64,000 bases of DNA from Planctomycetota bacterium (GTDB lineage Bacteria > Planctomycetota > Planctomycetia > Pirellulales > Pirellulaceae). Below are positions 20,780 to 35,743 of this stretch, in pieces; position 1 is the stretch's first letter, and every line of letters begins with the position of its first letter. Both the position numbers and the translations under genes were made by a program. The stretch lies in contig JAJRWU010000075.1 of assembly GCA_024276655.1 (NCBI GenBank), positions 1 through 64,000 on the forward strand, given 5' to 3'. The notes under the pieces are model-generated. The model did not search any database, had not been told where the DNA came from, and saw only the letters and a list, made by a program, of their open reading frames with translations.

Positions 20780-22609
20780 TTAATCGTCGTTGGCGCGGTA
20801 GGAATCGTATTCGGGATCCGTTCCTTCGGCGTCGCCTTCAACATTGCCAACATCATCGGCGTTGTTATCATCGGGTTGAAACACCGAAAGCACGCCCATT
20901 TCCTTCAGGTGTTCGTGGTGGTTTTCCACTTCGTCGGGCGTCAAACCGTTGGGAATTTCCATCGCGAAGATGAGCTGGGTGTCGCGGTCGCCGTATTTGG
21001 CGCTAACGCTCAAACGGCCGAGCCGGTCGAATTGCATGATCACATCGACGGGCTGTTGTGCGGGTTCGTCGCCTGAAAAACCTTCAATGCGGCCCACGCC
21101 CAATACTTCGGCGAGGTCTGGGTCGGCGGTGTCGCCCTGAGTGATTTCGACGCGAATGTAGGAGCCGGCTTCCGGTTTTTTTGTGGGGTGGCACCGCTTC
21201 GAGGCGTCTTTGGGAACGCGCGTGTTGGCTTTGATCAGCACCTCGTTTTTCCAGCGTTCGCCTTCCCTGACCCTGATTCCCACGCCATGCGCCGTGACAA
21301 ATTTCACGCTATCGACCGTCAGGCCGATCGGGTTTTCAACCGGCGGCGGCTCGGTTTCGGACGGCTTCTCCCCGGGCGGCTGGGCTTCCGCCGTTTCGCC
21401 AGCGCCGCCTTCCAGCGATATGCCGGGCGCGGCGGCGGAGAGCACCGCCGGTTTTTCGTCGAAGGGCGTGTCGGGCCGTTCTTCCTCGGCCGCCTCCTGG
21501 AAAATTTCAGGGCCCTGCTGGCCGCTCTCCAAAATATGGGCGTAAATGGCGGCGCCTTTGGCCACGGCGGTCACGGGGTTGATGTCGGAGTCGGGCGGCG
21601 AGCCGGAGGCTTCTTGGAGCATGCGTCGAATGGCGGGCATTTGCGTCGACCCGCCCACCAACAACACCCGCGAGATTTTATCCCAGGAGAGGCCGGCGTC
21701 GGAAAGCGCCAGTTCCACGGTGAGCCTCGTGCCTTGGACGAGGTGCGCCGTGGCGGCTTCAAATTGCTCCCGCGTCACGCTGGTGGTGTGGCGTTTGCCG
21801 CAGGCGTGAAACACCACGGGCGTTCGCTTCATCGAACTAAGACGCCGCTTGGCGAGTTCGCATTCGATGCGTAGATCGTGTTCGGCTTGAGGATCTTCCT
21901 GGCGAAGGTCGACGCCATGCGCGCGTTTGAAGTCGTCGGCGATGAGGTTCAAGAGGTAATCGTCCCAGTCGCGCCCGCCCAGGCGACGATTGCCCTCGGT
22001 GGCGATCTCCCAAATTTCGGTGGGAGAAATCCTCACGATCGTGACATCAAACGTGCCGCCGCCCAAATCAAAAACGACCACGGCCTGATCTTCCATTTGC
22101 TTCCCCGCCGAATCGTTCTTGCCGCGGTACAAGCCATACGCCAGCGTGGCGGCCATGGGTTCGTTCAAGGTTCCCAAAACATCGAGCCCGGCAATCACGC
22201 CGGCCTGTTCGGTGGCGCGGCGGCGGCGCTCCACGAAAAACGCCGGCACGGTGATCACGGCGCTGGGAATGGGGCCGATCTGCGATTCGGCCTCTCGTTT
22301 CAAATGGCTGATGATAATCGCGGAAAGACTCTCCGGCGTATGCGCGTGGCCGTTGAACTCGCGTTTCCAGGGTTCGCCCATGTGGGCCTTGATGAATTGC
22401 ACCGAACGGGAGACGTCGATTTTCGACTGTTGCAGCGCGACATCGCCCACCAGAACGGCGTGGTCGTCGAAATAGACCACGCTCGGCATCACGGCTTGGC
22501 CGGCGGCGTCGTTCACAACTTGCACCACGCCCCGCTTATCTAGATAGGCAAGCGAGGAATAGGTCGTTCCCAAATCGATACCCACGGCCTGACAGGCTCG
22601 CTCCGTCAT
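20780..22609 (-). CDS. Hsp70-family protein (DnaK-like, divergent C-terminus)
   Basis: 609 residues. The ATPase domain is intact: phosphate 1 motif VGIDLGTTYSSLAYLD, connect 1 in NEPMAATLAYGL, phosphate 2 FDLGGGTFDVTIV and adenosine motif LLVGGSTQMPAIRRML. After about residue 355 a low-complexity acidic linker (EEAAEEERPDTPFDEKPAVL) leads to a divergent substrate-binding region with a beta-sandwich-like stretch (DSVKFVTAHGVGIRVREG). The C-terminus is acidic (DDNNADDVGNVEGDAEGTD). So it is not housekeeping DnaK but a paralogue. Its gene is the last of the 15-kb minus-strand run, 15 bases after the second ExbD-like gene. It probably serves the membrane complex encoded upstream. No DnaJ or GrpE is adjacent. 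Confidence 0.88.
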   Translation of the reverse strand: MTERACQAVGIDLGTTYSSLAYLDKRGVVQVVNDAAGQAVMPSVVYFDDHAVLVGDVALQQSKIDVSRSVQFIKAHMGEPWKREFNGHAHTPESLSAIIISHLKREAESQIGPIPSAVITVPAFFVERRRRATEQAGVIAGLDVLGTLNEPMAATLAYGLYRGKNDSAGKQMEDQAVVVFDLGGGTFDVTIVRISPTEIWEIATEGNRRLGGRDWDDYLLNLIADDFKRAHGVDLRQEDPQAEHDLRIECELAKRRLSSMKRTPVVFHACGKRHTTSVTREQFEAATAHLVQGTRLTVELALSDAGLSWDKISRVLLVGGSTQMPAIRRMLQEASGSPPDSDINPVTAVAKGAAIYAHILESGQQGPEIFQEAAEEERPDTPFDEKPAVLSAAAPGISLEGGAGETAEAQPPGEKPSETEPPPVENPIGLTVDSVKFVTAHGVGIRVREGERWKNEVLIKANTRVPKDASKRCHPTKKPEAGSYIRVEITQGDTADPDLAEVLGVGRIEGFSGDEPAQQPVDVIMQFDRLGRLSVSAKYGDRDTQLIFAMEIPNGLTPDEVENHHEHLKEMGVLSVFQPDDNNADDVGNVEGDAEGTDPEYDSYRANDD

Positions 22610-22624
22610 TACATTACCTTATGT

Positions 22625-23545
22625 TTATTGGACCAGCCATTCATCGGCGCCTTCACCCAGATAGGCTTTTGCGTTTTCGGCGAAGGGGATCAGCCGGTAT
22701 TCGAATTTGGCCCGCACGATGGCGTCTTTCACGGCTGAAAACGACGCGAAGGAATCGGGCCAGACTATAATAGCAATAAAATGCTTCTCCGCGTCGAAGC
22801 CGCGAATTTTCTTCTCGATGCTCGCCAGCGCGGCTGGAGCAACATTGCCTGGTTCGACAACCAGCCCGGCGTTTTTGCGCGGCTGCAAGAATGAGCCTGC
22901 GCCGTCTCTTTTCTCCTCCACTTCCAGCGGATTGGCCGCCAACGACCCATCCGGCTGCTGCACGTGGTACGACGTCAACCGCCCGTTGCGGAGGAACATC
23001 AGCACCGGCTCCTTTTTAGTGCGGCGCATGCGTGGCAACTTCGCCGACCTCGTGCGAAGCGCCACTTCTTGCTGCAACTGTTCATCGGCCCGCTGAAGAT
23101 TTTTCGCCGCCGCCCGCATGGCGCGCGTTAGCTCGGCCATCAGGCCGGCAATGCGGTTGATTTCGATTTGCGCCAAGCTGGCGTCTTGGAGAAGCCGCAG
23201 TTTGTCGTCTTCCTGATTCGTTCTTTGCAACTGCTGCTGGCGGCGCTCCTCCAACAACTCCCGGATATTCTGGTCGAGAACGGCCTTCGCCATTTCCCGT
23301 TGCGCGGCCAAGGCGGCGCGGAGTGATGTCATTTCACGCCGCGTATCGGCTAGTTGTTTTTCCCAATGGATAAGATCAGCCTCGACTTTTTCGTCGGGCG
23401 GAGAAAGCGTGGTCGACGCCGCCGGAGACGTACTCAACAACACGACCACCAACATCGAAATAAACAGCACGCCGCCGAAGGTATTGCAGATCGTGTCGAG
23501 CAGCAGATCGAGGCTGGCGTTGTCGTCGGTCTGGCGGCGTCTCAT
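22625..23545 (-). CDS. ExbD-like membrane protein with coiled coil (second of pair)
   Basis: 306 residues from the ATG at 23545, which overlaps the upstream stop by four bases (ATGA), so the two genes are translationally coupled. The N-terminal MRRRQTDDNASLDLLLDTIC is followed by a single TM helix (NTFGGVLFISMLVVVLL), the arrangement of ExbD/MotB-type proteins with a conserved Asp just before or in the helix (SLDLLLD). A long coiled coil follows (about residues 55-165) and then a small alpha/beta C-terminal domain (FIAIIVWPDSFASFSAVKDA). It probably couples the ExbB-type proton channel at 26319-27185 to a periplasmic target. Longer reading from 23725 has no support. Confidence 0.75.
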   Translation of the reverse strand: MRRRQTDDNASLDLLLDTICNTFGGVLFISMLVVVLLSTSPAASTTLSPPDEKVEADLIHWEKQLADTRREMTSLRAALAAQREMAKAVLDQNIRELLEERRQQQLQRTNQEDDKLRLLQDASLAQIEINRIAGLMAELTRAMRAAAKNLQRADEQLQQEVALRTRSAKLPRMRRTKKEPVLMFLRNGRLTSYHVQQPDGSLAANPLEVEEKRDGAGSFLQPRKNAGLVVEPGNVAPAALASIEKKIRGFDAEKHFIAIIVWPDSFASFSAVKDAIVRAKFEYRLIPFAENAKAYLGEGADEWLVQ

Positions 23546-24378
23546 TCCGAGGGCGCCCCGCGACGAGGATCGATCGCCGTTTGATCGATCGAGAGCAGCT
23601 CGTAACCCATGTCGAAATCCAACTTGCGGAGAACGGCGTTCACGTGTTGAAATTTTTCCACGCCATCGGGCTTGATGAGGAGCACAAAGTACTCCGATTC
23701 GTGATCGCGTTTTCCCTTCGCCCATTGTTGTAGGTCGTCGGCGTTTTCAAAAACGGCGGGCGGCGTTTCGACGCCGACTTGGGCGGCGAGAATGTGATCA
23801 GCCGAGATTTCCAGCAGCCAGGGTGTTTTAGGATCGCCGGGCGCGGGATTAAAAATCATGCGGTTCAGCTCTCGCAAGCGTTTGAGTTTTTCCTTCTTAT
23901 CCTTGATGGCGGCCAGCATCGCGGCGACCTTTTTTCGATCATCTTCGCGATTTTCGAGTTGTTCTCGCGCCGCGTTTTCGCGATCTTTCGCTTCACGACT
24001 TCGTTCCGCCCGCCGGCTCGTTTCCTGTTCGAGCTCCTGGTTGAGCCGTTTCAGGTCGTCGAGTTGCGTTTGCACGTGCGAGGCGTCGTATCTTGCTGAT
24101 TCGACAAACGCACTGGCTTGCTGGCTTATTTGATTGCGCAGCGCTTTGAGATTTTTTTCATCTTGGGCGACGGCTTCCTTCAAGTTCGCCACGCTGGCCA
24201 CCGCCGCCCGAGCCTCTTCGACCGTGCGCATGGAACGCTGCTGTTCGGAGTCGGCGCGTTGGATCAATTCGATCGCCAAAATGAGTGTGATGAGAATCAT
24301 GATTCCCGTCACCGAAGTGATGATGTCTTGAAAGGCGAACAGCGAGAACGGCGCGGCGTCACGACCTCGACGCGACAT
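23542..24378 (-). CDS. ExbD-like membrane protein with coiled coil (first of pair)
   Basis: 278 residues. The N-terminus MSRRGRDAAPFSLFAFQDII runs into one TM helix (TSVTGIMILITLILAIELI), with Asp before the helix (FQDI) as in ExbD relatives. A charged coiled coil covers about residues 55-165, followed by a C-terminal alpha/beta domain (LEISADHILAAQVGVETPP ... SEYFVLLIKPDGVEKFQHV) that resembles the C-terminal domain of its neighbour. The pair is a recurrent planctomycete arrangement with ExbB. Coupled by ATGA to the next gene; 65 bases after the GYF/toroid gene. Confidence 0.75.
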   Translation of the reverse strand: MSRRGRDAAPFSLFAFQDIITSVTGIMILITLILAIELIQRADSEQQRSMRTVEEARAAVASVANLKEAVAQDEKNLKALRNQISQQASAFVESARYDASHVQTQLDDLKRLNQELEQETSRRAERSREAKDRENAAREQLENREDDRKKVAAMLAAIKDKKEKLKRLRELNRMIFNPAPGDPKTPWLLEISADHILAAQVGVETPPAVFENADDLQQWAKGKRDHESEYFVLLIKPDGVEKFQHVNAVLRKLDFDMGYELLSIDQTAIDPRRGAPSE

Positions 24379-24443
24379 AACAAAACCTCATATGTGTTTC
24401 AAAAACGCGTTGAACGAATGGGCCGGAGCGGCCGCATGGCCAA

Positions 24444-26285
24444 TCAATCGGCGTACAAGGGTGCGTGGCGATAATAAACTTCCAGCGTGCAAATTGCCAG
24501 AGCCGTCATGTAAACCCGCCCGCCCATGGAGTCGTGAATATCGCGCGGCGTCCAACTGCCGGCTTGGTGGCCTTGCGTTTCCTGCAAGGCGATGAGCGTA
24601 TCGCGCATGGGTGCGTTCCAGGCCTCCCAGGGGTCTCCCTGATAATGGTGCATGACCTGCGTGGCGTAGTACCAATAGTACATGTTCGGATTGCGAATTT
24701 GCGCCAGATTTTTCGCCAGGTGTTCGACGCCAGACGCCATGCCGGGATGAATTTTCGGCCAGCCGGTGTATTGGCGGCAGAGCAATCCTTCGGCGGTCAT
24801 GGTAAGACGCGCGCCGCTGCCTCTCATATAAGCGTAGCGGCCGCCGATTTTATCGGCTTGCACCGAATCGATGAAGCGCGTCGCGGCCTCCATCGTTTCC
24901 ACGGGCACGTTAAGATCGGCCAAATCGGCGCTGCGCAGCGCCATGATCTGCCAGCCCACGACGCTCAAATCGCCCGGCGACCGTGGAGCGTATCTCCAAC
25001 CGCCCTCGGTGTGTTGCGCGGCGACAATAAAATCGATGGCGCGCTGCGCCGGCCTTTTTAGTTTCCGGTCGCCGGTCATGGCCAGCGCTTCGGCCAAGGC
25101 GAGCGAGGCTTGTCCGTGTGCGTACATGTTGCCGCCGCCAATGCTGGTAAAACCGCCCGAAGGCGTTTGGTTCTTGACCAGCCAGTCGAGCGCGCGCTTC
25201 ACAACCCGTTGATGATCGCCTTGCCGATGCGTGTGCCCGGCGCCCAAAAACGGCAACAACGCCAACGCCGTTCCCGCGGCATCGCTGTTGAGGCCGCTAT
25301 CGCCGCAGGCACAGTTGTTGACCCTCTGGAAATTATCCAACGACCAACTTCCGTCGGGGTTTTGGTGTCGAACGAGCCACGCCAAGCCGGCCTTTACCGC
25401 CGCTTCACTTTCCGGCGTGCCTTCCTTCAAGGCGAGGTCGGCTCGCCGCGCCGCCGTACGACCGGCGAACATGTTTTCGAGATCTGGCAGGTCGAACTTC
25501 CCGGGCATGTTCGCCGCGGGGGCGCGTTTGAACCTCAGCAGGCCAGAAGACGATTTCTCCTCCTCGTCGAGATTGCCTTCCAGATTTTCCGTTTCGATGG
25601 CGTTGGCGTCTTCCGGGAGATCACGATTCCGCCGCGCCGCCGCGTTCTCTTGATTGTCGGCGTTTTCGGCGTTGTTTTTTTTCTCTTGCTGGGAGTTTTC
25701 AGACGCGGCGGCCGCGCTATTGGCGCCGTTTGGCGTGGTGTCTTGTGACGAGGCGTCGTTGGGTTGGCCCGCGCCATCTGTTCGAGATTCGAAAAGCGCG
25801 GTTTCATTCGAGGACGTCAAACCGCTGCGCCTCGCCACGACATCGCCATTGAGGCCGGGAGTAATGTTTTGGCAGGAGCGAAGCGGCAGAAGAAACAACA
25901 TCAGCAACAACAACAGCGCGGCGGTCAGGCAGCCGCACCCGGAGCCCATAAGCAGCGGCAGACCGTAGACTCTTTTCTTTTTTCGCTTTCGCTCCGGCGG
26001 GCGATTTTCTTCTTCGGCGTCTGGTCGGGATTCGCCATCTGTTGAATCGTCATCCGCCGCCTCTTCCAGCGCCGTTTTTTCCAGCGATGCCTCTTCCAAC
26101 GATGCTGCCGCTGGCTGGGTGAAAAAACCACTGAGTGTCGTGATCGGCGCCCAGTGGCCTGTTTCGCCACGGCGGACTTGATCGTGCGGAGAAATTTCGC
26201 CGCGTGACGCCAGGTACTTGAGTTCATCGCGAGAAAAAGGCCCCATGGCTTCGCCGTCGCGCTGATAATACCACTGCGTGCTCAT
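24444..26285 (-). CDS. GYF_2 - TM - prenyltransferase/squalene-cyclase-type alpha-alpha toroid protein
   Basis: 613 residues. Residues 1-52 are a GYF_2 domain (WYYQRDGEAMGPFSRDELKYLASRGEI, in part), a proline-rich-peptide-binding fold common in planctomycetes. A charged linker precedes a TM helix (about 108-135, after RKKKR). A 150-residue Asn/Glu/Ala-rich linker leads to a C-terminal alpha-alpha barrel (about 290-600) with QW-like repeats: AGLAWLVRHQNPDGSWSLD, ALDWLVKNQTPSGGFTSIGG, AIDFIVAAQHTEGGWRYAP. No DxDD or DCTAE catalytic motif is seen, so it is probably a binding toroid rather than a cyclase. Lies between ExbB and the ExbD pair, 33 bases from ExbB. Confidence 0.8.
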   Translation of the reverse strand: MSTQWYYQRDGEAMGPFSRDELKYLASRGEISPHDQVRRGETGHWAPITTLSGFFTQPAAASLEEASLEKTALEEAADDDSTDGESRPDAEEENRPPERKRKKKRVYGLPLLMGSGCGCLTAALLLLLMLFLLPLRSCQNITPGLNGDVVARRSGLTSSNETALFESRTDGAGQPNDASSQDTTPNGANSAAAASENSQQEKKNNAENADNQENAAARRNRDLPEDANAIETENLEGNLDEEEKSSSGLLRFKRAPAANMPGKFDLPDLENMFAGRTAARRADLALKEGTPESEAAVKAGLAWLVRHQNPDGSWSLDNFQRVNNCACGDSGLNSDAAGTALALLPFLGAGHTHRQGDHQRVVKRALDWLVKNQTPSGGFTSIGGGNMYAHGQASLALAEALAMTGDRKLKRPAQRAIDFIVAAQHTEGGWRYAPRSPGDLSVVGWQIMALRSADLADLNVPVETMEAATRFIDSVQADKIGGRYAYMRGSGARLTMTAEGLLCRQYTGWPKIHPGMASGVEHLAKNLAQIRNPNMYYWYYATQVMHHYQGDPWEAWNAPMRDTLIALQETQGHQAGSWTPRDIHDSMGGRVYMTALAICTLEVYYRHAPLYAD

Positions 26286-26318
26286 GGGATTTTCCCCTCT
26301 CCGCCGGCGCGTCCCGTG

Positions 26319-27185
26319 TTAACTGGTCAGCTCCCGTTCGTAGGGCATGATGCGAAGTCGATTGACCACGTTCCGCACACAATATTCGTCGCAATCGTCG
26401 AGGAATTCTTCTTCGGATTTTTTTAGAAAAGTGAGAAAAAGTTGAATGCATAGTGCGGCCACCAAGGCTTGCAAGGTGGTCTCGAAGGCGGTTGCCAATC
26501 CGCCCGTGACGCCCTGCAAGGCGCCCTTGATTTGCGAGAGGTCGTCGGCCGATTGCAGCACGCCGCCAAAGCCGCCGATAGCCTGCGAAAGCCCCAACAC
26601 CGTGCCTACGAACCCCAACACCGGTATGGCCCAAACCAGGCCTCGCAAAACGGCATAACTGGCTTCCAGCACGGAGTCGTCGTGCTGCGACTGCGAGCGG
26701 AGGATGTCGTCGACGTCGGAAACCCGGCCCAGATTCCGCAAGTTCGACAGCGCGATCACGATCCGATTGAACAAAATAAAATGGCGAGGATCGTCAACGG
26801 TTTGGTAAATGTTTTCCAATACATTGTCGACCGTCGCCGAAGAGAGCACGAAGTCGTGGTCGGCTGGAACGACATCGAGCGCGAGCGAACGCCGTTGGAA
26901 GGCCAATTTGCAAGATTTCAAAAACAAAATCGCCAATGACCAAAACGACAGAAAACAAATGGCGAAGGGCACAACGCCCCGTTCGAGAAACATTTCCGCA
27001 AAAGCCGCCGTGCCGGCCACTTGCCTCAGCGGCAACAACGCCGCCACGAAAAGAACAGTTCCCACCACGCCCAGCAGCGCCGACAAAAACATGTTCACCC
27101 TAGTGTATCGGCCGCCGGAAAAGGCCAAACGCTGCTCAATATCTTGACGGGCCCAAGACAAGGCGACTTCCGTTGGTAGTGCCAC
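26319..27185 (-). CDS. MotA/TolQ/ExbB proton channel family protein
   Basis: 288 residues from the GTG at 27185. The frame is also open to a GTG at 27230, but those extra 15 codons lie partly in a family B repeat end (27204-27223), so the shorter form is preferred. Hydrophobic helices: FLSALLGVVGTVLFVAALL, VVPFAICFLSFWSLAILFL, a paired late segment AIPVLGFVGTVLGLSQAI and ALVAALCIQLFLTFL. GLVWAIPVLGFVGTVLGLS and the later ALQGVTGGLATAFETT match the ExbB/TolQ pore signature (G-x2-GTV-x-G and the conserved Thr). It should form a proton channel with the two ExbD-like proteins. Confidence 0.85.
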   Translation of the reverse strand: MALPTEVALSWARQDIEQRLAFSGGRYTRVNMFLSALLGVVGTVLFVAALLPLRQVAGTAAFAEMFLERGVVPFAICFLSFWSLAILFLKSCKLAFQRRSLALDVVPADHDFVLSSATVDNVLENIYQTVDDPRHFILFNRIVIALSNLRNLGRVSDVDDILRSQSQHDDSVLEASYAVLRGLVWAIPVLGFVGTVLGLSQAIGGFGGVLQSADDLSQIKGALQGVTGGLATAFETTLQALVAALCIQLFLTFLKKSEEEFLDDCDEYCVRNVVNRLRIMPYERELTS

Positions 27186-27203
27186 GCTGGTGCTTTCTCT
27201 TTG

Positions 27204-27345
27204 GAGCGGCAGATGAAAATTTACCAGCACGCGTCGGGAGTCGGGGAGTGTTTTTGGGTTCCCGCCTACGCGGGAATGACCGTTTGCTGATTCACTCGCT
27301 TGCGCTTCGTGCTTGTATTAGCTGAATTTTCATCTGCCGCCCGTC
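27204..27345. repeat. MITE-like repeat, family B (copy 1)
   Basis: Terminal inverted repeats GCGGCAGATGAAAATT (27206-27221) and its complement (27325-27340) enclose GGGTTCCCGCCTACGCGGGAATGACC and the segment CGTTTGCTGATTCACTCGCTTGCGCTTCGTGCTTGTATTA. Translated on the minus strand the middle reads STKRKRVNQQTV-like, a common misannotated peptide in planctomycete genomes. It lies between the GYF/DUF4190 gene and ExbB and reaches the ExbB leader. Confidence 0.8.
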
Positions 27346-27409
27346 TTGTGACGACGGTTTTATATAAGAACATTACTCAATCTGGCCGATAGGCGGCCAT
27401 CCGCCAAGC

Positions 27410-28216
27410 TCAACTCGAACTCACGAGTATCACGATGATCGAGATAACGATCACCAACAAAAGCAGCGACAAGCCCAGATAGCCCAAAACCAGCCCCGTT
27501 AACGCGCTGCCGCTCCCGCCGAGTGTGTTGCCGCTGGCGCGTATTTCGTTTCTCGCCAAATGACCGCAAACAACGCCGCCCAAAGAACCGAAAAAGGGAA
27601 TACAGAAAAATCCTAAAATCGATAACACCAGGCTGGTCGTGGCCATTTTTGATTTGCCAGACGCCCCGCCCGCGAACGAAGCAGAGTTCGCCGACGCCGG
27701 CGGGAACAGTTCAGCAATGGTGTTCGCTTCGACCCAATCCACCATGCTGTCGGTCCAGAGCATGTCGTGGGCGGAAAGTTTTCCGGCGGCCAGCAGTTGT
27801 TGGAGGTCGGCCATGAGGACCGGCCCCGCCTCTTCGGCGCCTTGGGTGTAATACCACATTGCGTCCGCCGCCACTGTTTTCTCGTGCGAGGCGGTTTTCT
27901 CATGCGCCGCCGAGCCGGCTGGCTGCAAGGCGTTGTCTGACAGGGCGGCGTCTGAAACACCTGCCGACGGCTCCCCTGCTACCTCCGGCTCGGCAAGATG
28001 AAGGTCGCCGGCGGGGGGAAGTTGGGCTTGAGGCATCTGCATGGCGAGCGTCGGGAAGAGTTGCGGGTGTTTGGTCGCCCTTTCCCAAGCGACGCCATCG
28101 GTCGACACCTGGTGCAGTCGACTAAACCGCCCTCGCTTGGCCAGGTCGTGCAATTCCTCAACCGAAAAAGGGCCCTGCACCTGCCCCTTCAAACGTATGT
28201 GGTACTGCTCAGACAA
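27410..28216 (-). CDS. GYF_2 / DUF4190 membrane protein
   Basis: 268 residues from the TTG at 28216 (MSEQYHIRLKGQVQGPFSVE), chosen because GAGGTG lies 7 bases upstream; the GTG at 28231 has none. Two GYF_2 domains (about 3-52 and 115-165: MWYYTQGAEEAGPVLMADLQ) are joined by an Ala/Glu linker. The C-terminus has two TM helices of DUF4190 type (SLVLSILGFFCIPFFGSLGGVVCGHLA and LTGLVLGYLGLSLLLLVIVISI, in parts). GYF domains likely dock proline-rich partners; the GTPase three genes upstream ends in a Pro/Thr/Ala repeat and is a possible ligand (inference). 51 bases after the 989-aa gene. Confidence 0.8.
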   Translation of the reverse strand: MSEQYHIRLKGQVQGPFSVEELHDLAKRGRFSRLHQVSTDGVAWERATKHPQLFPTLAMQMPQAQLPPAGDLHLAEPEVAGEPSAGVSDAALSDNALQPAGSAAHEKTASHEKTVAADAMWYYTQGAEEAGPVLMADLQQLLAAGKLSAHDMLWTDSMVDWVEANTIAELFPPASANSASFAGGASGKSKMATTSLVLSILGFFCIPFFGSLGGVVCGHLARNEIRASGNTLGGSGSALTGLVLGYLGLSLLLLVIVISIIVILVSSS

Positions 28217-28267
28217 CCGGATACACCTCACGCGGCTTGGTTTGACACAACTTCGTCCTACAACGGT

Positions 28268-31237
28268 TCAACGCAACTGTTCAATATACACGATACGGCC
28301 TTCCTTAAGCGAGCCGCTGGCATCGGGCGCCAGATTCAAACGGCTGCCGGAAAACGTTCCGATCGGCGTGAACCGCCCCATACCGCCTTCATCGCCGCCG
28401 GCGTTGAGGAGCAGGTAGGCCGTGGCGCCTTGAGCGGGCGGCGCCGAGACGGGGCAACGCCATTGGTCGCGGGTGTCGCGTCTGAGCCAGCCAACCCATT
28501 GGTATTGAGGGCCGAAATTCGGCGATGCAAGCGCCGCCAACCCACGGCTGATTTCCGCCGCAACGCCCTTGGCCGGCCGCGTGAGAACGGTAAGTTTGTT
28601 CATGACCGCCTGCGCCTGCTCGCTCGCGACGCGGCCGGCTTGATCTTCAGGATTAAACCAATTGGCGGCGTCGTTGAAGCGGCCTTTCTCCAATTCCGCC
28701 AAATCGGGGCCGAATATTTTGGCCAACAGGGCGCTGCCGCGGCAGCCTTTTTTGAGCAATACGACCGCCAACTGGATCTTCAATAAAGGATCCATTTTGA
28801 AACTAGGATTCTTCTCGCCCATGTCGGTGGTCAAGGTCCAGAGTGCTAGGGCGAAGGTCTTTTCCCAGGACTTTTTTCGAGATTCGAGGTCGTCGAGGTC
28901 GTCGGTCATGAGCGCGCGAAAAGTTTGTTGGGGAGATTCCCAATTGAACTCTTTCCCACGCACTCTGGAGCGAGGTTGCTCCGCGCTGATGGCTGTTTTG
29001 GGCAGACGGTACTCCTTGGTTTTGACAAGCTTCGTATCCGTGACCGCCTCGAACACAACGATGTTGTTCATAATTCGCGGTTCTTTGCGGGTGTAGTATT
29101 TTCTCCCGCCGGTGTAGACGACGTAGAGATCTCGGATTTGCGTTTTTTCCAAGATTCCGCGAATTTCGTCGACGATGCCAACGCCAGATTCGCCGCTGCG
29201 TTGGGCCACCGTTTTCAAATAGTCGAGAAGCGTATCGAGCGTGTTATTCAGCGGGAAGCGACCGAATTGCTCCTCCAGCTCCGCCGCTTTACGCACCAGA
29301 ACGGCGGCTGCGGCGGAGGTTTGTTCGGTCACGGGTTTTCGCGTCAATTCGCCGACCAGCGCCAGCCAGCGGCTGTATCCTTGCCACAGATTCGTTTCGG
29401 CGGCCAAAATCTGATCGAACGCATTGGCGCGAGACGTGCCTGGAAATTCATTCGCGAACGCGCGCAACGCGGCCGCATACCGATCGTGGTTGCCGAGGCT
29501 GGCCGTCACTTTCTGTAGCGCCGCTTCGATGCGCAGCAGCTCTTGACGGCGATCCTCCATGCCCTCGATGTTGTTGCGCATGCCTTGCGCCATATCGCGC
29601 AGTTCGGGATATTTCCGGCTGCGGTTCAGCAATAGCTTGGCTTCCTGCAGCAGCTTGGCCAGAGCGCGTTGGTCGGTAGGATCGGCCAAATCGGAACGCC
29701 GGGCAAGGTCGAGCAGCCGTTCGCGGATTTGCGTTTCCTCGGTCGCATCGAGTTCATTCAGTTTGGAGCGGAGGCGCCCCTCCAACGACTCGATATCTCG
29801 CAGTTCGTCGTCGCCGTTGGCGAGTTCCTTTTTTGTTTTGTTGAGGAGCAGAATGGCGTCTTGCACGGAGGCCACGGCGCCTTCGTCGAGCCATTGTTCG
29901 GCTTGGGCGAGCGCGGCGTCGAACCGTTGCCTCCGCGATTCCTCAGCCGATTGCAGTTGCCTCAATTCCGAGAGCGCTGCTTGAAAATCGGGCGATTGGT
30001 AAGCGGCGAGGTTTGATTCTTTCAAATCATTTGCATAACGGCCGGCTTCGGCGAAGTGCTTGCCCGCGATACGATTTTCCAGCGTGGCTACGTGCTTGGC
30101 CACCGTGGCGGAGCGCGTCTGGAAGTAGACACCCGCACCCGTGGCGCCGGCGGCCAAAAGCATGACCGCCAACACGCCAATGACGACCAAGCGCCGCTGC
30201 CGCTTCTCTTTTTCTTCGAGGTAGCGCAGCCGTTCGCTCAAGCGGCGTTCGAGCGTTTCAGAAACGCCCCACTCCTCGAACCGCGCCGCCGCGTGGTACA
30301 ACCGCTCTAACTGCTCGCGTGGCGCGTTTTCGTCGAGCGCGCGTTCCAAACCGGCAATAGCGGCGGCGTGCTCGGCCTGATCTTGTTCTTGCTGGTCTTG
30401 ACCTTCGAGCCATTCCAACGCGGGCGCCGCTCGTTCCAACAGTGGGTCGCTGTTTGGGAGTCCGGCCAAGGTCAGACGAGATTTCCACTGGGCTCGCCAG
30501 CGGCGTCCCTCCCGCACATCGAAATCGGTCCAGGCGGCGTTGAGCGCTTCCTCGATTTTCACAAGTTCGCTGCAAGCTTTCTCTTGGCGAAGTCGGGTGT
30601 GCGCGCCAGCCGCTTTCCTGACCAACGCCTCCGGCGGAGATTCCAGCCAGTGCGCGGCGCGCACTTCCTTCTCCAAAGCCGCCACGACTTGAAGATTCCC
30701 GGCCGACTTCGCCGCCTCGATTTCGGGGGGAAGTTGTTCCAGACGCGCTATTTCAAATTCACGTAGGTCCGCCGCCCACAGCGGATTCCCGGCGTCGGCT
30801 TCGGAAAGTTTCCGCATGACCTCGATCCGCTGGTGCAACGAACTTCCGGCCAAGGCGTGCAAACGGTGGGCGCGCATCAAACGGGAGAGCGGCTGTTCGA
30901 GGTCGTACGCCTCGTTCAAATCGGCGGCGATATCGATCAGCAACTTCGGCGGCGCCGGCAGGCGAAATTGCCGCACGAATTCAGCCCAAACATCGCGTTC
31001 GGGAAAATCGAGCACGCGCACGGCGTCGAGCAAGTCGCTTTCACCGTCGCAGAGTTGAATGGCCTCCGAACGCAGCCCTTTCTGTAGTAGGTTGTCACAC
31101 TCGCGCAGGCGTTCGTTGACATCCACCACGGCGTCGACGTAGGGCTGCCGGAATTCCTCCAACGATTCGGGAGAAACGGCGGCGTCGGAAGCCAAGATGG
31201 TTTGAATTCCCACCACGATTTGTTCGTAATCTGACAT
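28268..31237 (-). CDS. large membrane-anchored coiled-coil protein, unknown function
   Basis: 989 residues. A cytoplasmic helical region of about 345 residues rich in Glu, Arg and Leu ends in a positively charged stop (EEKEKRQRR), then one TM helix (about 350-371, VVIGVLAVMLLAAGATGAGV). After it come about 400 residues of helical, tetratricopeptide-like or coiled-coil sequence and a C-terminal soluble domain with beta strands (about 690-989: YVVYTGGRKYYTRKEPRIMN ... FGPQYQWVGWLRRDTRDQW). I recognise no enzymatic motif. By its place between the GAP1-like gene and the GYF gene, it is a candidate membrane scaffold of the GTPase system. Start ATG at 31237; the only alternative is far inside. Confidence 0.7.
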   Translation of the reverse strand: MSDYEQIVVGIQTILASDAAVSPESLEEFRQPYVDAVVDVNERLRECDNLLQKGLRSEAIQLCDGESDLLDAVRVLDFPERDVWAEFVRQFRLPAPPKLLIDIAADLNEAYDLEQPLSRLMRAHRLHALAGSSLHQRIEVMRKLSEADAGNPLWAADLREFEIARLEQLPPEIEAAKSAGNLQVVAALEKEVRAAHWLESPPEALVRKAAGAHTRLRQEKACSELVKIEEALNAAWTDFDVREGRRWRAQWKSRLTLAGLPNSDPLLERAAPALEWLEGQDQQEQDQAEHAAAIAGLERALDENAPREQLERLYHAAARFEEWGVSETLERRLSERLRYLEEKEKRQRRLVVIGVLAVMLLAAGATGAGVYFQTRSATVAKHVATLENRIAGKHFAEAGRYANDLKESNLAAYQSPDFQAALSELRQLQSAEESRRQRFDAALAQAEQWLDEGAVASVQDAILLLNKTKKELANGDDELRDIESLEGRLRSKLNELDATEETQIRERLLDLARRSDLADPTDQRALAKLLQEAKLLLNRSRKYPELRDMAQGMRNNIEGMEDRRQELLRIEAALQKVTASLGNHDRYAAALRAFANEFPGTSRANAFDQILAAETNLWQGYSRWLALVGELTRKPVTEQTSAAAAVLVRKAAELEEQFGRFPLNNTLDTLLDYLKTVAQRSGESGVGIVDEIRGILEKTQIRDLYVVYTGGRKYYTRKEPRIMNNIVVFEAVTDTKLVKTKEYRLPKTAISAEQPRSRVRGKEFNWESPQQTFRALMTDDLDDLESRKKSWEKTFALALWTLTTDMGEKNPSFKMDPLLKIQLAVVLLKKGCRGSALLAKIFGPDLAELEKGRFNDAANWFNPEDQAGRVASEQAQAVMNKLTVLTRPAKGVAAEISRGLAALASPNFGPQYQWVGWLRRDTRDQWRCPVSAPPAQGATAYLLLNAGGDEGGMGRFTPIGTFSGSRLNLAPDASGSLKEGRIVYIEQLR

Positions 31238-31287
31238 GCCTTTTATTTCCGGCGGCGCCGTAAAGATTCATTCGACCAGAGGGTAAT

Positions 31288-32460
31288 CTACAATTCCACT
31301 CCCACCGGCTCGGCCGCCTCCACGGCGCGAGTCCCGGTTTTCTCTCCGGCTGTTTCTTCTCCGGCAAACGGCGGCGCCTCGCTCGGAGCGATTGCCGGCG
31401 CCCTGGGAGCTGCTGTTTGCGGGGACGTTTCCACCGACCTGGCTAAAATCACACGTGCTCCGGGTTTCAAATCCAGAGCGAAAAGAAGATTCACCTTTGT
31501 ATCCGCACAGATGACGTCGAGCGTTTCCTCCACGTGTTCCTTCCAGGGAGGCGTGTTTTGAGCCACGCGCAATCGCACATGCCAAGCGGCGAGTCTTCGT
31601 GCGGCGGTCTGGCGTTTTAAGTTGATCTCCTGCGCCTGCTCGCTCCATTTGTTGATATCCAGCAACCATTGTTCGTGAGCCGATACCTTGGCGGGGTCTG
31701 GTTCTTTCGGTTTCACGCCCGCATGCTTTCGGAGCGCCGATTCGGCCTCTCCTTTCGCTTTCTTCGCCTCCGCGACTTGAAACTGAGCCGTTTCAATTCT
31801 TTTTTTCGCGCCAAAATTTCGCAGACGCTCTTTCATCGTCGATACGCTGCTGACAACCATTCGCTTGGCGATCAGTTGGGGGTTCGCGCTGTTTAAGCCG
31901 TACGCCTCGGGGGCAAAAGCAAAAAAACTATAATGAACCTCGACGCCCGCCTCCGTCGGTTTTATCCGCCACTCCATTTCGAGGGTGTTGAAATCGGCGG
32001 GGCTCCCGGTATTCGTCACAAACCTTACTTTGCTGAAAGGTATTTGTCTTGCCAAGGCGCCATTTTTCCAATCGTTGGGGAGAGAGCTTTCCAACGCGAG
32101 CCGCATCGAAAAACGCTGTTCCAAAATGGCTTTATCTTCGGCCGAAGCATTTTTTATGAGGTTCTTCACTTCGGGCCAGGCGAGCGATTCCGGATTCCTG
32201 ACCAACGAGTGATCGCCGGTCCGCCAGGTAATTCGTCCGATTTCCGCGTCGCGGGGTTCGAGGAGTTGACAGAGCTGTATCGACTGCGGCGCGGCGGGCA
32301 CATCTTTTCCGGCGGGTGCGTCATTTCGGTGAGCCACCTTGATTTTGAGTGCGTGAAATCGCAACAACGATCGCTGTTGGCTGAGGTCTTTGTTGGGATA
32401 CTTCGGCGCCCATTGGAAAAAGAGCGCCTCGCCATCAAGCGTGATTCGCGCGATATTCAA
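31288..32460 (-). CDS. unknown protein, probably the C-terminal part of the GAP1-N2-like protein
   Basis: 390 residues if started at TTG 32460 (GGAG five bases upstream). The frame is open 50 codons further, back to about 32613, and this stretch looks coding (high GC at third positions; reads ATPLEIKPLDDKKGGSQRV then WQIFTISSNVSGDQL) but has no ATG, GTG or TTG. It takes over directly where the upstream frame ends in ...ELLGADL, so one protein of about 940 residues is likely. The N-terminal 110 residues (IARITLDGEALFFQWAPKY) look like a beta domain; then comes a coiled region (about 215-290) and a disordered Pro/Ala tail. Unknown function; 50 bases before the 989-aa gene. Confidence 0.6.
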   Translation of the reverse strand: MNIARITLDGEALFFQWAPKYPNKDLSQQRSLLRFHALKIKVAHRNDAPAGKDVPAAPQSIQLCQLLEPRDAEIGRITWRTGDHSLVRNPESLAWPEVKNLIKNASAEDKAILEQRFSMRLALESSLPNDWKNGALARQIPFSKVRFVTNTGSPADFNTLEMEWRIKPTEAGVEVHYSFFAFAPEAYGLNSANPQLIAKRMVVSSVSTMKERLRNFGAKKRIETAQFQVAEAKKAKGEAESALRKHAGVKPKEPDPAKVSAHEQWLLDINKWSEQAQEINLKRQTAARRLAAWHVRLRVAQNTPPWKEHVEETLDVICADTKVNLLFALDLKPGARVILARSVETSPQTAAPRAPAIAPSEAPPFAGEETAGEKTGTRAVEAAEPVGVEL

Positions 32461-32567
32461 CTGGTCTCCGCTGACGTTGGAGGAGATCGTAAAAATTTGC
32501 CAGACGCGCTGCGAGCCGCCTTTTTTGTCGTCGAGCGGTTTGATTTCCAGCGGCGTCGCGTCGCCGC

Positions 32568-34118
32568 TTAAAGGTCGGCGCCGAGCAGCTCCATCGAGAC
32601 ATTCCGGGGAGATTCACTAAAAACGAGGCCCAATCGAACTTGGCGTTCATTGTCCTGGTTTCCCTCCAGGCTGCCGCCGGATTTGTATTCCGGAATTACC
32701 AACCGATAGGGGTCTTTTTTGAGGGCGGAAAACGGGAAGGCGAGTTCTTGCTCCCGCTCCTGGGCCGCTTTTGTTTTATCGGCCGCCTCTTTGTCGGCTT
32801 TCGCTTTCACGGCTTTCGCTTTCACGGCTTTCGCTTTGTCGGAGGCGGCTTTCTCCATGGCCGCCTTTTCACGCGCCGCTCTTTTTTTGTCTGCCGCGGC
32901 CGACGCTTCGGCCGCTGCATGGGCGGCTGCGTCAGTGGCGTGAGGACCGGTTGGCTCCATAGGCGGGTCGGCGGTGGCCACGGTTTGCCTATTGTTATTA
33001 CCGCCGCTCGTCACCAGATACGCCGCCAAACCAAACACCGCCACGAAGAGCAACATGGCCCCTCCGCCCATGACAAACACCAACGGCGAATTACGTTTTT
33101 TGGCCGCCGATTCCATACGACTTCTGAGGACGTCATCCGCTGGCAAGCCGCCCCGCGACGCCCTGCCGACGCGTTCGGGCGGCGCCAAGGTCAGTTCGCC
33201 CGCGTCTGGCGCCGCTTCAGGCGGCGAATCTGACGTATCCTGAGAAACAGCGCCGGCTGGCGCTGGGGCTTGTGCTTTGGGAGGGGCCGTGAGCGGCGCT
33301 ATTCCCCGACGGGCCGCCAACACCAATTCGCCGTCGGGCGCCGCGCCCAAGGGCTTGCAAAGGTCGATCAGCTGCGCGTGCGGGTTCCTCCGCAACACAT
33401 CCGCCTCGGAACTGCCGTCGAAGATGAACCGCCATTGGCACTCCAAGCCGGCCGGTAGTTTGGTGAAGTAGGTGCTGAACGTGACTTGCCAGCGCTGCTC
33501 TTGCGGAAGCAAGCTCAACGCTTCGACCACCAGCGGCAGCGGTTCCGCGCCGACGGGATAAATCACCGAGATCGGCTTGCCGCCGCGCGTGCGCGCGTTT
33601 TCCGCCAGCACACCGGCCCAACCTTCGTCGCCCGCGTCGCCGGCTTTGGCGGAGAGCCGCTTCCAGCGCGAACAGACCCGCGTGGGGCACGCCTCGGCGC
33701 GCAACGGCCGACCTTCCGGCAGGATTCTTGTTTCGCCGTCCCAGGCGGTTTGAAAAAAACCGGGAGAGGTCATCACCCAGGCGGGGCCGCCCGTCGCGAC
33801 GAGCGCTTCAGCCGGCTCGATCGCGACATGATGCGCCAGCTTGTTCGAGCGTTTGGTGTAGTCAAAACCTGCGTCGCAAATACGAGAAAGGACGTGCAGT
33901 TTGCGCCCGCCCACCGAGGCAATCAGGTGTTGATAATTGACAGGATTATACTTGGAGCGAGGGTCGTGCGTTTCGAAGGCGTGCCGGTAACCGCTCAACG
34001 ACTCCAAACGCTCCGCAAGGTTCTTAGCCATGCCCGCAGTGCTGACAACCGTGCAAAAACCCCGGCTGCCCGCCTTCAAACCTTCGGGAGCGGAGGTGTA
34101 AAGAATCTCTTGGCTCAC
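32568..34118 (-). CDS. GAP1-N2-like (GTPase-associated protein 1) membrane protein
   Basis: 516 residues from a GTG at 34118 that overlaps the GTPase stop (GTGA), so translation is coupled. Residues 1-260 resemble the N-terminal domain of GTPase-associated protein 1 (GAP1-N2): EILYTSAPEGLKAGSRGFCT, VVSTAGMAKNLAERLESLSGY, NPVNYQHLIASVGGRKLHVL, SRICDAGFDYTKRSNKLAHH. A Pro/Ala linker, one TM helix (345-369, PLVFVMGGGAMLLFVAVFGLA), a Lys/Ala-rich repeat (about 400-455, with AVKAKAVKAKADKEA) and a short beta segment follow. The frame ends at TAA 32568, apparently in mid-domain. The match was made by eye from memory of the family; a profile search would settle it. Confidence 0.65.
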   Translation of the reverse strand: MSQEILYTSAPEGLKAGSRGFCTVVSTAGMAKNLAERLESLSGYRHAFETHDPRSKYNPVNYQHLIASVGGRKLHVLSRICDAGFDYTKRSNKLAHHVAIEPAEALVATGGPAWVMTSPGFFQTAWDGETRILPEGRPLRAEACPTRVCSRWKRLSAKAGDAGDEGWAGVLAENARTRGGKPISVIYPVGAEPLPLVVEALSLLPQEQRWQVTFSTYFTKLPAGLECQWRFIFDGSSEADVLRRNPHAQLIDLCKPLGAAPDGELVLAARRGIAPLTAPPKAQAPAPAGAVSQDTSDSPPEAAPDAGELTLAPPERVGRASRGGLPADDVLRSRMESAAKKRNSPLVFVMGGGAMLLFVAVFGLAAYLVTSGGNNNRQTVATADPPMEPTGPHATDAAAHAAAEASAAADKKRAAREKAAMEKAASDKAKAVKAKAVKAKADKEAADKTKAAQEREQELAFPFSALKKDPYRLVIPEYKSGGSLEGNQDNERQVRLGLVFSESPRNVSMELLGADL

Positions 34119-35743
34119 GACCCCGTCTCCTTAATGTTCTTCCGTGGAACTTGAGCTTCCTGTTCCGGCGCCGCCCGCGGCGACACAGCTAGGTCGATGC
34201 CGCCATCGTCGGAATCGCGATCGGTTGTTTCGTCGGCAGCGCGATCGCGCGGCGCGGCCGCTGGTGAAGACTCCGACCCCGCCGGCGGAATCGGAGCGGT
34301 GGTCGGAGCGGTGGTCGGAGCGGTGGTCGGAGCGGTGGTCGGAGCGGTGGTCGGAGCGGTGGTCGGAGCGGTGGTCGGAGCGTGCGAGGACCGCGCCGCT
34401 CTCTGTTCAATAGGCCCGTCCTTAAAAGGCCCGTCCTTAAAAGGATTGCGATCGCCCGACGATTCGCCCACGCGAACCAACCCCTTGGTGGTGCAGTGCA
34501 GTGCGTAGAGCATGGGAACCTCCGCCCACTGGGGCTTGATGTTGCGCGGCCGCACTCCGAGGAAGCCGGTGTCGGGGTTGATTTCAGGATGCGTTCCCAA
34601 CGCGCTGACCGGAATGTAGATCACGTGCGAGGAAAAACCTTCCGCCGCCGCCACCACTTCCGGCGCATACTTGAGCATCAAATCCTGCACATGCCGCGAG
34701 ACCGCCTTGAGCATGCCGACATCGAGCGCGGCGCCGCCATTCGGCATTTTGTGAACCACCCAATCAATATCCAACGTCTTGCCGCCCATGAGTGAATTCC
34801 AAGCGTCGAACTTCGTCACCACGACAATCAAGGGCCGAGTGTCTTTTTTGTTATTTCCGATCTGCCCTTCCGAACGAACACGTTTGGCCACCTCGCCCAG
34901 GATGGTGTCTTGCCGGTTGAGCCGCACGGCGTCGGCCATTTGAGGATCGAGGTTTTCGGCGTTGGCGCAGGCGTCGCGAAAATGCACGTGTTGCGTGGGG
35001 TCGAACAAGAACAGCAGCGCCTTGGACGACGCCAAGTGCCGGGTGGTTGAGTCGCTGCCCAAGCTCCCTCCAGGCATAAACTGCTCGCCGGCGTTGTCGT
35101 ACAGACACAAAGCCCTGGAAATTTTTCGAGACGCCTCATGCGCCGGGTGTTTGCTTGCCGGCTCCAGTGAAAAAACGAATGGCCGGGGAATGAGGGTGTC
35201 GCGGCCGTCGAGCTTCACCGATTGAAAAAACTTTCCGTGCTCGCCTTGCGTTTTGGGAAGGGTCGTGATGTGATCTTTCTCAGGATTCAAAAACAGCAGC
35301 TCTTCATAACTTCCCAGCAGCAGATTGGCGGTGGGGTCGGCGTCGCCGAAGCTCAAATCGAATCGATCGCGCAACGTGTTGCGCAACTGCCAGGTCATGG
35401 AGGTGAGGAAGTACGACTTCCCAGACGTCGGCGCCCCGACGATGGAAATAAACAGCGGCTCCATGTGCAGCAGATCGTGAGCCACGACCAAATGGCAATG
35501 CGGGCACGCCAATTCGCGGCAACTGGCGCCGTTGGCGTCGATGGCCTTTCCGGAAACATTGAAACGCGTGGGGTGAAAACGGAGTTGGGCGTCGGATCCC
35601 AAACGCGGATCATGCACCAAATCGGGATGCGCCGCGATCCATTTGATGTCTTCGGGAGGAAATTCGAACCAGCAATGCGGGCAAATAACCTGCTGCCGCA
35701 GTATTATCGCCGAATTCACTGATGAAGAAGTCTTTCGCGACAC
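34115..35743 (-). CDS. zinc-ribbon P-loop GTPase (double-GTPase/GAP1-system type)
   Basis: 542 residues from a GTG at 35743 (GGAG seven bases upstream). The N-terminus has a zinc ribbon: C21-P-H-C24 and C80-P-H-C83. A GTPase-like P-loop follows: G103-A-P-T-S-G-K-S110 (G1), D216-N-A-G-E (G3-like) and T310-K-F-D313 (G4-like). DADPTANLLLGSYEELLFLN lies between G1 and G3. The C-terminal third is low-complexity: eight near-perfect PTTA repeats, then an Asp/Glu/Arg-rich tail. First gene of the 15-kb run, coupled to the GAP1-like gene. It likely acts as a membrane-recruited switch. Whether it hydrolyses GTP or ATP is not shown; TKFD favours GTP. Confidence 0.7.
   Translation of the reverse strand: MSRKTSSSVNSAIILRQQVICPHCWFEFPPEDIKWIAAHPDLVHDPRLGSDAQLRFHPTRFNVSGKAIDANGASCRELACPHCHLVVAHDLLHMEPLFISIVGAPTSGKSYFLTSMTWQLRNTLRDRFDLSFGDADPTANLLLGSYEELLFLNPEKDHITTLPKTQGEHGKFFQSVKLDGRDTLIPRPFVFSLEPASKHPAHEASRKISRALCLYDNAGEQFMPGGSLGSDSTTRHLASSKALLFLFDPTQHVHFRDACANAENLDPQMADAVRLNRQDTILGEVAKRVRSEGQIGNNKKDTRPLIVVVTKFDAWNSLMGGKTLDIDWVVHKMPNGGAALDVGMLKAVSRHVQDLMLKYAPEVVAAAEGFSSHVIYIPVSALGTHPEINPDTGFLGVRPRNIKPQWAEVPMLYALHCTTKGLVRVGESSGDRNPFKDGPFKDGPIEQRAARSSHAPTTAPTTAPTTAPTTAPTTAPTTAPTTAPIPPAGSESSPAAAPRDRAADETTDRDSDDGGIDLAVSPRAAPEQEAQVPRKNIKETGS
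34291..34382. repeat. 12-base tandem repeat coding for PTTA units
   Basis: The unit TCGGAGCGGTGG is repeated about 7.7 times without a mismatch inside the GTPase gene. On the coding strand it gives (A)PTTAPTTAPTTAP. The length is a multiple of three, so copy-number changes keep the frame. Perfect identity suggests recent expansion. Confidence 0.9.

Follow-up and report, generated by a model that had tools for sequence, protein, structure and literature searches.

Kaur et al. (2020) described bacterial systems in which a zinc-ribbon GTPase resembling DO-GTPase2 is followed by a GAP1 protein with GAP1-N2 and GAP1-M domains and a transmembrane (TM) segment; "GAP1" denotes a GTPase-associated protein, not a GTPase-activating protein (PMC7159879). 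A planctomycete protein joining a GYF pair to a TM-rich region or a trypsin domain was already part of that description (PMC7159879). Such DO-GTPase/GAP1 systems are a proposal based on sequence, and the literature covered here holds no demonstrated output for them. In Myxococcus, the GTPase MglA acts on AglR and GltJ (PMC12288465), and the motor consists of AglR with AglQ and AglS (PMC3169522, PMC9389320). Here we analyze a minus-strand gene cluster at positions 20780-35743 of a 64,000-nucleotide stretch (the window) of contig JAJRWU010000075.1, from a Planctomycetota metagenome-assembled genome (MAG). A GTPase-GAP1 pair of the kind described by Kaur et al. heads this cluster and is joined to an ExbB/ExbD-type motor. 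Our reading, held with modest confidence, is that the cluster forms a single conserved operon encoding a trans-envelope machine that is switched by GTP and driven by protons. Switch and motor very probably work together, because the same core order recurs across many planctomycetes and their relatives.

Gene order of the GTPase/GAP1 and motor core

All ten open reading frames (ORFs) predicted in one direction by the first-pass annotation were confirmed at their positions on the minus strand. After correction, with two GAP1 frames merged, the locus holds nine genes:

34115-35743, minus strand: putative zinc-ribbon P-loop GTPase (DO-GTPase2-like), first of the run (C21/C24/C80/C83 ribbon and GTPase motifs; sub-threshold DO-GTPase2 match)
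31288-34118, minus strand: GAP1, with GAP1-N2 and GAP1-M domains, a TM segment and an extracytoplasmic C-terminal part (Pfam; frame in congener G001)
28268-31237, minus strand: 989-aa helical-repeat membrane scaffold with one TM segment and a beta-rich C-terminal domain (profile, AlphaFold)
27410-28231, minus strand: adaptor with two GYF_2 domains and DUF4190 with two TM segments (Pfam)
26319-27230, minus strand: ExbB/TolQ/MotA-type channel subunit with four predicted TM segments (Pfam MotA_ExbB, conserved Thr)
24444-26285, minus strand: GYF-TM-alpha/alpha toroid protein in an accessory slot (GYF_2, SQHop_cyclase_C; toroid homologues at other loci)
23542-24378, minus strand: ExbD1, with a single TM segment, invariant Asp18, long helices and a C-terminal alpha/beta domain (Asp, structural model)
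22625-23545, minus strand: ExbD2, an ExbD1 homologue with a single TM segment and an invariant Asp, start corrected (Asp, profile, alignment)
20780-22609, minus strand: Hsp70, an accessory, lineage-specific neighbor (Pfam HSP70, 2.5e-96)

Three sets of loci were compared, gathered by searching for GAP1 in 98 related genomes, by searching 294 Planctomycetota genomes with scaffold and ExbD2 profiles, and by an ExbB alignment scan; the loci of the first two sets were annotated with profiles built in this analysis. The ExbB scan gave 80 loci, 45 of them with at least 6.5 kb of upstream sequence and 55 with enough downstream sequence. Upstream of ExbB lay the GTPase (38/45), GAP1 (39/45) and the scaffold (40/45), and downstream lay ExbD1 (51/55) and ExbD2 (47/55). 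Being selected by ExbB, this set gauges the specificity of the ExbB subfamily for the system rather than the frequency with which GAP1 has a motor beside it. For loci gathered by GAP1 or scaffold and having enough sequence, ExbB followed GTPase-GAP1-scaffold in 16 of 23 (hand count). The single-contig genome G075 holds just a distant ExbB, so its motor is absent rather than moved. The link between GTPase switch and proton motor drawn by the first-pass annotation was thus upheld: the two halves occur together, not separately, in most genomes that carry either.

The survey defined a core of seven genes in constant order, GTPase-GAP1-scaffold-GYF/DUF4190-ExbB-ExbD1-ExbD2, found in the window and in loci L028, L030, L031, L035, L036 and L046-L048. 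Loci L049-L053 have the core order with the GYF gene missing or misplaced. In nine of ten genomes, strong ExbD2 matches lay no more than about 5 kb from the scaffold; in the tenth, the contig is 3.7 kb long. Carriers belong to Planctomycetota, Verrucomicrobiota, Lentisphaerota and Thermodesulfobacteriota (Desulfamplus and one MAG labeled Syntrophus). All seven core genes are present in the cultured Botrimarina colliarenosi Pla108 (L093) and "Candidatus Laterigemmans baculatus" JC640 (L113), while Desulfamplus magnetovallimortis (L130) has six, with no GYF adaptor detected and the two ExbD genes at a distance of about 4 kb. Among named records, Planctomycetaceae bacterium SZUA-33 (L066) is nearest to the window, with an ExbB 98% identical. 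The ratio of nonsynonymous to synonymous substitution rates (dN/dS) was 0.09 to 0.29 in the seven frames comparable with near relatives, and these frames are under purifying selection. Since the order is kept across phyla and dN/dS lies in this range, the cluster is far beyond chance.

Two gene models were revised, the ORF positions themselves having stood. The first-pass annotation had given GAP1 as two frames (32568-34118 and 31288-32460). Congener G001 has one continuous frame here, and the window is one base short of it at about 32568-32571. Because the G001 frame is unbroken and the difference is a single base, the two frames are one gene split by a one-base indel, which could reflect an artifact of assembly or a genuine mutation in the MAG. 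Two separate GAP1 proteins are ruled out by the continuous frame. The start of ExbD2 was moved from 23725 to 23545, the Met at which its homologues begin; this start overlaps ExbD1 by 4 nucleotides (ATGA). Spacing in the locus runs from 4-nucleotide overlaps (GTPase/GAP1 and ExbD1/ExbD2) up to 179 nucleotides ahead of ExbB. The GTPase C terminus is KETG-like in several homologues, and at 34115-34135 of the window the codons AAG GAG ACG read as a Shine-Dalgarno sequence for GAP1, whose start overlaps the GTPase gene. This arrangement suggests translational coupling. Promoter-like and terminator-like sites in the locus were near the shuffled expectation and uninformative.

Some loci had further genes. 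An extra gene of 400 to 630 aa without a Pfam match stands between GAP1 and scaffold at L078 (4729-6306), L030 (6748-8400) and L027 (10228-12120), with a TM segment predicted in both copies checked (L078 and L030). In genome G276 (L166, 12206-17999), one GTPase lies between two GAP1 genes immediately upstream of a full motor system. A divergent scaffold-ExbB-ExbD1-ExbD2 set without GTPase or GAP1 is found at L060 (9902-18279), beside a TonB-dependent receptor, a YfiR-like gene and a CHASE8 histidine kinase.

Switch, motor and accessory proteins

The zinc-ribbon cysteines C21/C24/C80/C83 and the motifs GxxxSGKS, DNAGE, TKxD and PVSALG of the predicted GTPase are kept in 20 homologues, so that its identity as a GTPase is well supported by motifs. 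Its assignment to a family was less clear-cut: 15 of the 20 homologues matched DO-GTPase2 (E up to 0.01, best 1e-8), but the window protein scored 22.9 bits, under the Pfam cut-off of 27. A 12-bp tandem repeat of 7.7 copies at 34291-34382 encodes a (TAPT)n tail of the GTPase that is nearly missing in G001; the length change is in-frame. Profile searches bore out the other domains named earlier, except ExbD: GAP1-N2 (2e-27) and GAP1-M (1.3e-13) in GAP1, both above cut-off; GYF_2 (3e-21) and DUF4190 (2e-16) in the adaptor; and MotA_ExbB, the SQHop toroid and HSP70 in their respective proteins. PPG/PPP motifs, candidate GYF ligands, were in modest excess over composition shuffles in GAP1 and the scaffold.

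The 989-aa protein had been taken for a membrane coiled coil. Its AlphaFold model (predicted local distance difference test [pLDDT] score, 88) instead shows helical repeats with a single TM segment near residues 350-368, followed by a C-terminal domain rich in beta structure, which rules out the coiled coil. The protein had no Pfam family match, its model had no Foldseek match at an E value of 0.001, and a VIA search with the whole model returned generic helical repeats only, the C-terminal beta domain not having been searched separately. Strong profile matches were found in 13 of 294 Planctomycetota genomes. Judged from sequence, the scaffold is a conserved family without a name.

ExbB matched MotA_ExbB above cut-off (2.3e-11) and gave a weak PADLOC match to ZorA; residues T210, T242, T251 and T252 are conserved in 99 to 100% of 70 sequences. 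At the start of the sole predicted TM segment, an intramembrane Asp is present in 99% of 69 ExbD1 and 100% of 56 ExbD2 sequences, and the homology of ExbD2 to ExbD1 is given by a 99.5% profile match. The ExbD1 model (pLDDT, 89) had TolR (5by4) and ExbD (8pek) as its top two VIA structural matches, each with a Z score of 7.9, and no Foldseek match at an E value of 0.001. A PDB sequence search gave nothing beyond a weak TolQ match with ExbB and, with ExbD1, coiled-coil noise. The intramembrane Asp and, tentatively, the predicted fold of ExbD1 are the only features that point to an ExbD label for the two proteins. The window's own genome has ten MotA_ExbB matches, several canonical ExbB/ExbD sets among them, and contains other ExbB-ExbD-ExbD trios, indicating that one ExbB with two ExbDs is a general feature. 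One of these, at L064 (8721-12726, contig C95), is a second divergent trio without GTPase or GAP1.

The first-pass annotation had included a dedicated Hsp70 chaperone and the GYF/toroid protein in the system, and neither was retained as core. Of the 80 ExbB loci, none but the window and congener L066 has Hsp70 next to the core, which rules it out as a core component or dedicated chaperone; at L027 an adjacent Hsp70 gene has the opposite orientation. Another full-length HSP70 match lies elsewhere in the window's own genome. The toroid protein (GYF_2, 1e-10; SQHop_cyclase_C, 1e-11) is a recurring accessory and not core. Toroid proteins occur in or beside 9 of 80 ExbB loci: GYF-fused and in the window's slot (L068), after ExbD2 (L080, L085 and L116) or on the other strand (L083 and L084). 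Elsewhere the slot holds vWA or trypsin proteins, and the accessories found at other loci comprise GYF-trypsin, GYF-vWA, TM-vWA and GYF-PrsW proteins. These proteins seem to be modules tethered to the membrane that can replace one another. Between ExbB and ExbD1, a protein of about 305 aa with a TM tether also recurs (L078, 10863-11780; L080, 10885-11796), the L078 copy without a Pfam match.

The proposed machine and its alternatives

In the machine that we favor, GTPase and GAP1 would form a cytosolic switch at the membrane, with GAP1 reading the zinc-ribbon GTPase. Five ExbB subunits around one ExbD1 and one ExbD2 would make a heterodimeric 5:2 motor, and the paired-GYF adaptor and helical scaffold would tether the switch to the ExbB pentamer with its ExbD1/ExbD2 axle. 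The switch could then turn the motor on or off or position it, and proton flow would power action on the envelope itself or on extracytoplasmic modules anchored by a TM segment, such as the toroid here and vWA, trypsin or other domains elsewhere. Our best guess is that it serves some regulated process at the cell surface or envelope. More tentatively, and with somewhat less than even confidence, we suggest that the system is a 5:2 motor class of its own, in which the ExbD1/ExbD2 axle is necessarily heterodimeric and a dedicated GTPase/GAP1 switch sets the activity or placement of the motor. This class would span the Planctomycetes-Verrucomicrobia-Chlamydiae (PVC) group and Desulfamplus and would be a second way in which evolution placed proton-driven envelope work under GTPase control, independent of MglA.

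Several results weigh against this machine. By hand count, 7 of the 23 loci found through GAP1 or the scaffold lack the motor, and therefore the GTPase/GAP1 switch can work without it. No window protein matched ExbD (PF02472) in Pfam, a list of 25 families for 45 ExbD1 homologues did not include ExbD, and neither ExbD1 nor ExbD2 gave a profile-profile match to the eight canonical ExbD proteins of the same genome. The VIA Z score of 7.9 for ExbD1 is modest, just above unrelated folds at 7.0 to 7.5. Finally, no TonB/TolA-type SHLS motif was found in the accessory proteins checked, vWA proteins included.

The alternative that fares best, a serious rival although we regard it as unlikely, is a conflict (anti-invader) system in which DO-GTPase/GAP1 would be the sensor-threshold unit that Kaur et al. 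proposed and ExbB/ExbD an effector acting on the envelope through ion flow or force, as in Zorya ZorAB. GAP1-N2 systems were classed as conflict systems with membrane effectors by Kaur et al. (PMC7159879), and Zorya is proof that motors of this type can defend cells (PMC11890865). The variable accessory modules (toroid, trypsin and vWA), the patchy distribution and the repeated loss of the motor would also fit. However, the core contains no nuclease or known toxin, its motor genes are conserved and not hypervariable, and its neighbors are housekeeping genes. PADLOC found no defense system in the core, and its one match in the flanks was of HEAT/ARM type, to a WD40 protein.

A dedicated energizer of outer-membrane uptake, Ton/Tol-like and tuned by the GTPase, is less probable still. 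An ExbB subunit is present, and the divergent relative in L060 lies near a TonB-dependent receptor, but Pfam found neither such a receptor nor TonB/TolA in the window cluster, the accessory proteins checked lack SHLS, and the genome's several canonical ExbB/ExbD sets are already suited to that job. That switch and motor are two independent neighboring operons with no functional tie is very improbable: GTPase-GAP1-scaffold-GYF (L027, L034, L039 and L040) and GTPase-GAP1-scaffold (L055 and L056) do occur without an adjacent motor, but the gene-order survey, with the joined order at most loci across phyla, contradicts it, as does the GTPase+GAP1 tree, in which motor-less loci are six scattered tips.

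Comparison with known systems

The association of GTPase, GAP1 and GYF proteins has been published (PMC7159879), and an earlier paper noted tolQ-tolR-tolR clusters of the PVC group that include TPR and vWA genes (PMC12204202). Our literature search, which covered open-access main texts, found no paper that links ExbB/ExbD to DO-GTPase or GAP1. Relative to this literature, the ordered multi-phylum core with a fixed ExbB and two-ExbD motor appears to be new. A fixed proton motor in one branch of the DO-GTPase/GAP1 systems gives that branch a testable physical output (ion flow, force) and clear point mutants.

Each of the known systems matches only part of the core. Unlike the systems of Kaur et al., whose main text has no ExbD or MotA, the present one has ExbB, two ExbD-like proteins and a helical-repeat scaffold in fixed order (PMC7159879). 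No FNIII-repeat partner was found here, with no FN3 match in Pfam for any of the ten window proteins, and the Hsp70 theme of those systems belongs to actinobacteria and firmicutes (PMC7159879). Zorya shares the channel region of the 5:2-type motor family, but the present motor has two ExbD-like subunits whereas ZorB carries a Pal/OmpA-type peptidoglycan-binding domain; neither an OmpA-type domain nor ZorC/D/E partners were found in the window cluster by Pfam and PADLOC. In the PVC tolQ-tolR-tolR clusters, one TolQ-like gene is joined by two TolR-like genes that differ from each other, along with repeat and vWA proteins, and a TM-tethered vWA protein likewise stands at some loci of our system. 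No GTPase or GAP1 was reported for them (PMC12204202), and the vWA proteins checked here lack SHLS. Some of these clusters may overlap the present system.

The Agl-Glt gliding machinery likewise combines a GTPase acting on a motor and adaptor with one ExbB-type and two ExbD-type subunits. It differs in that the GTPase here would be DO-GTPase2 and not of the Ras/Arf family, the cluster has no roadblock (MglB) domain, and the Glt outer-membrane components are absent. The likeness to MglA/GltJ/AglRQS is one of logic, not of family membership, and on that analogy the gliding motor is the nearest working model for the cluster. The system also provides a natural test of heterodimeric axles in 5:2 motors, a matter that is open for AglQ/AglS (PMC9389320).

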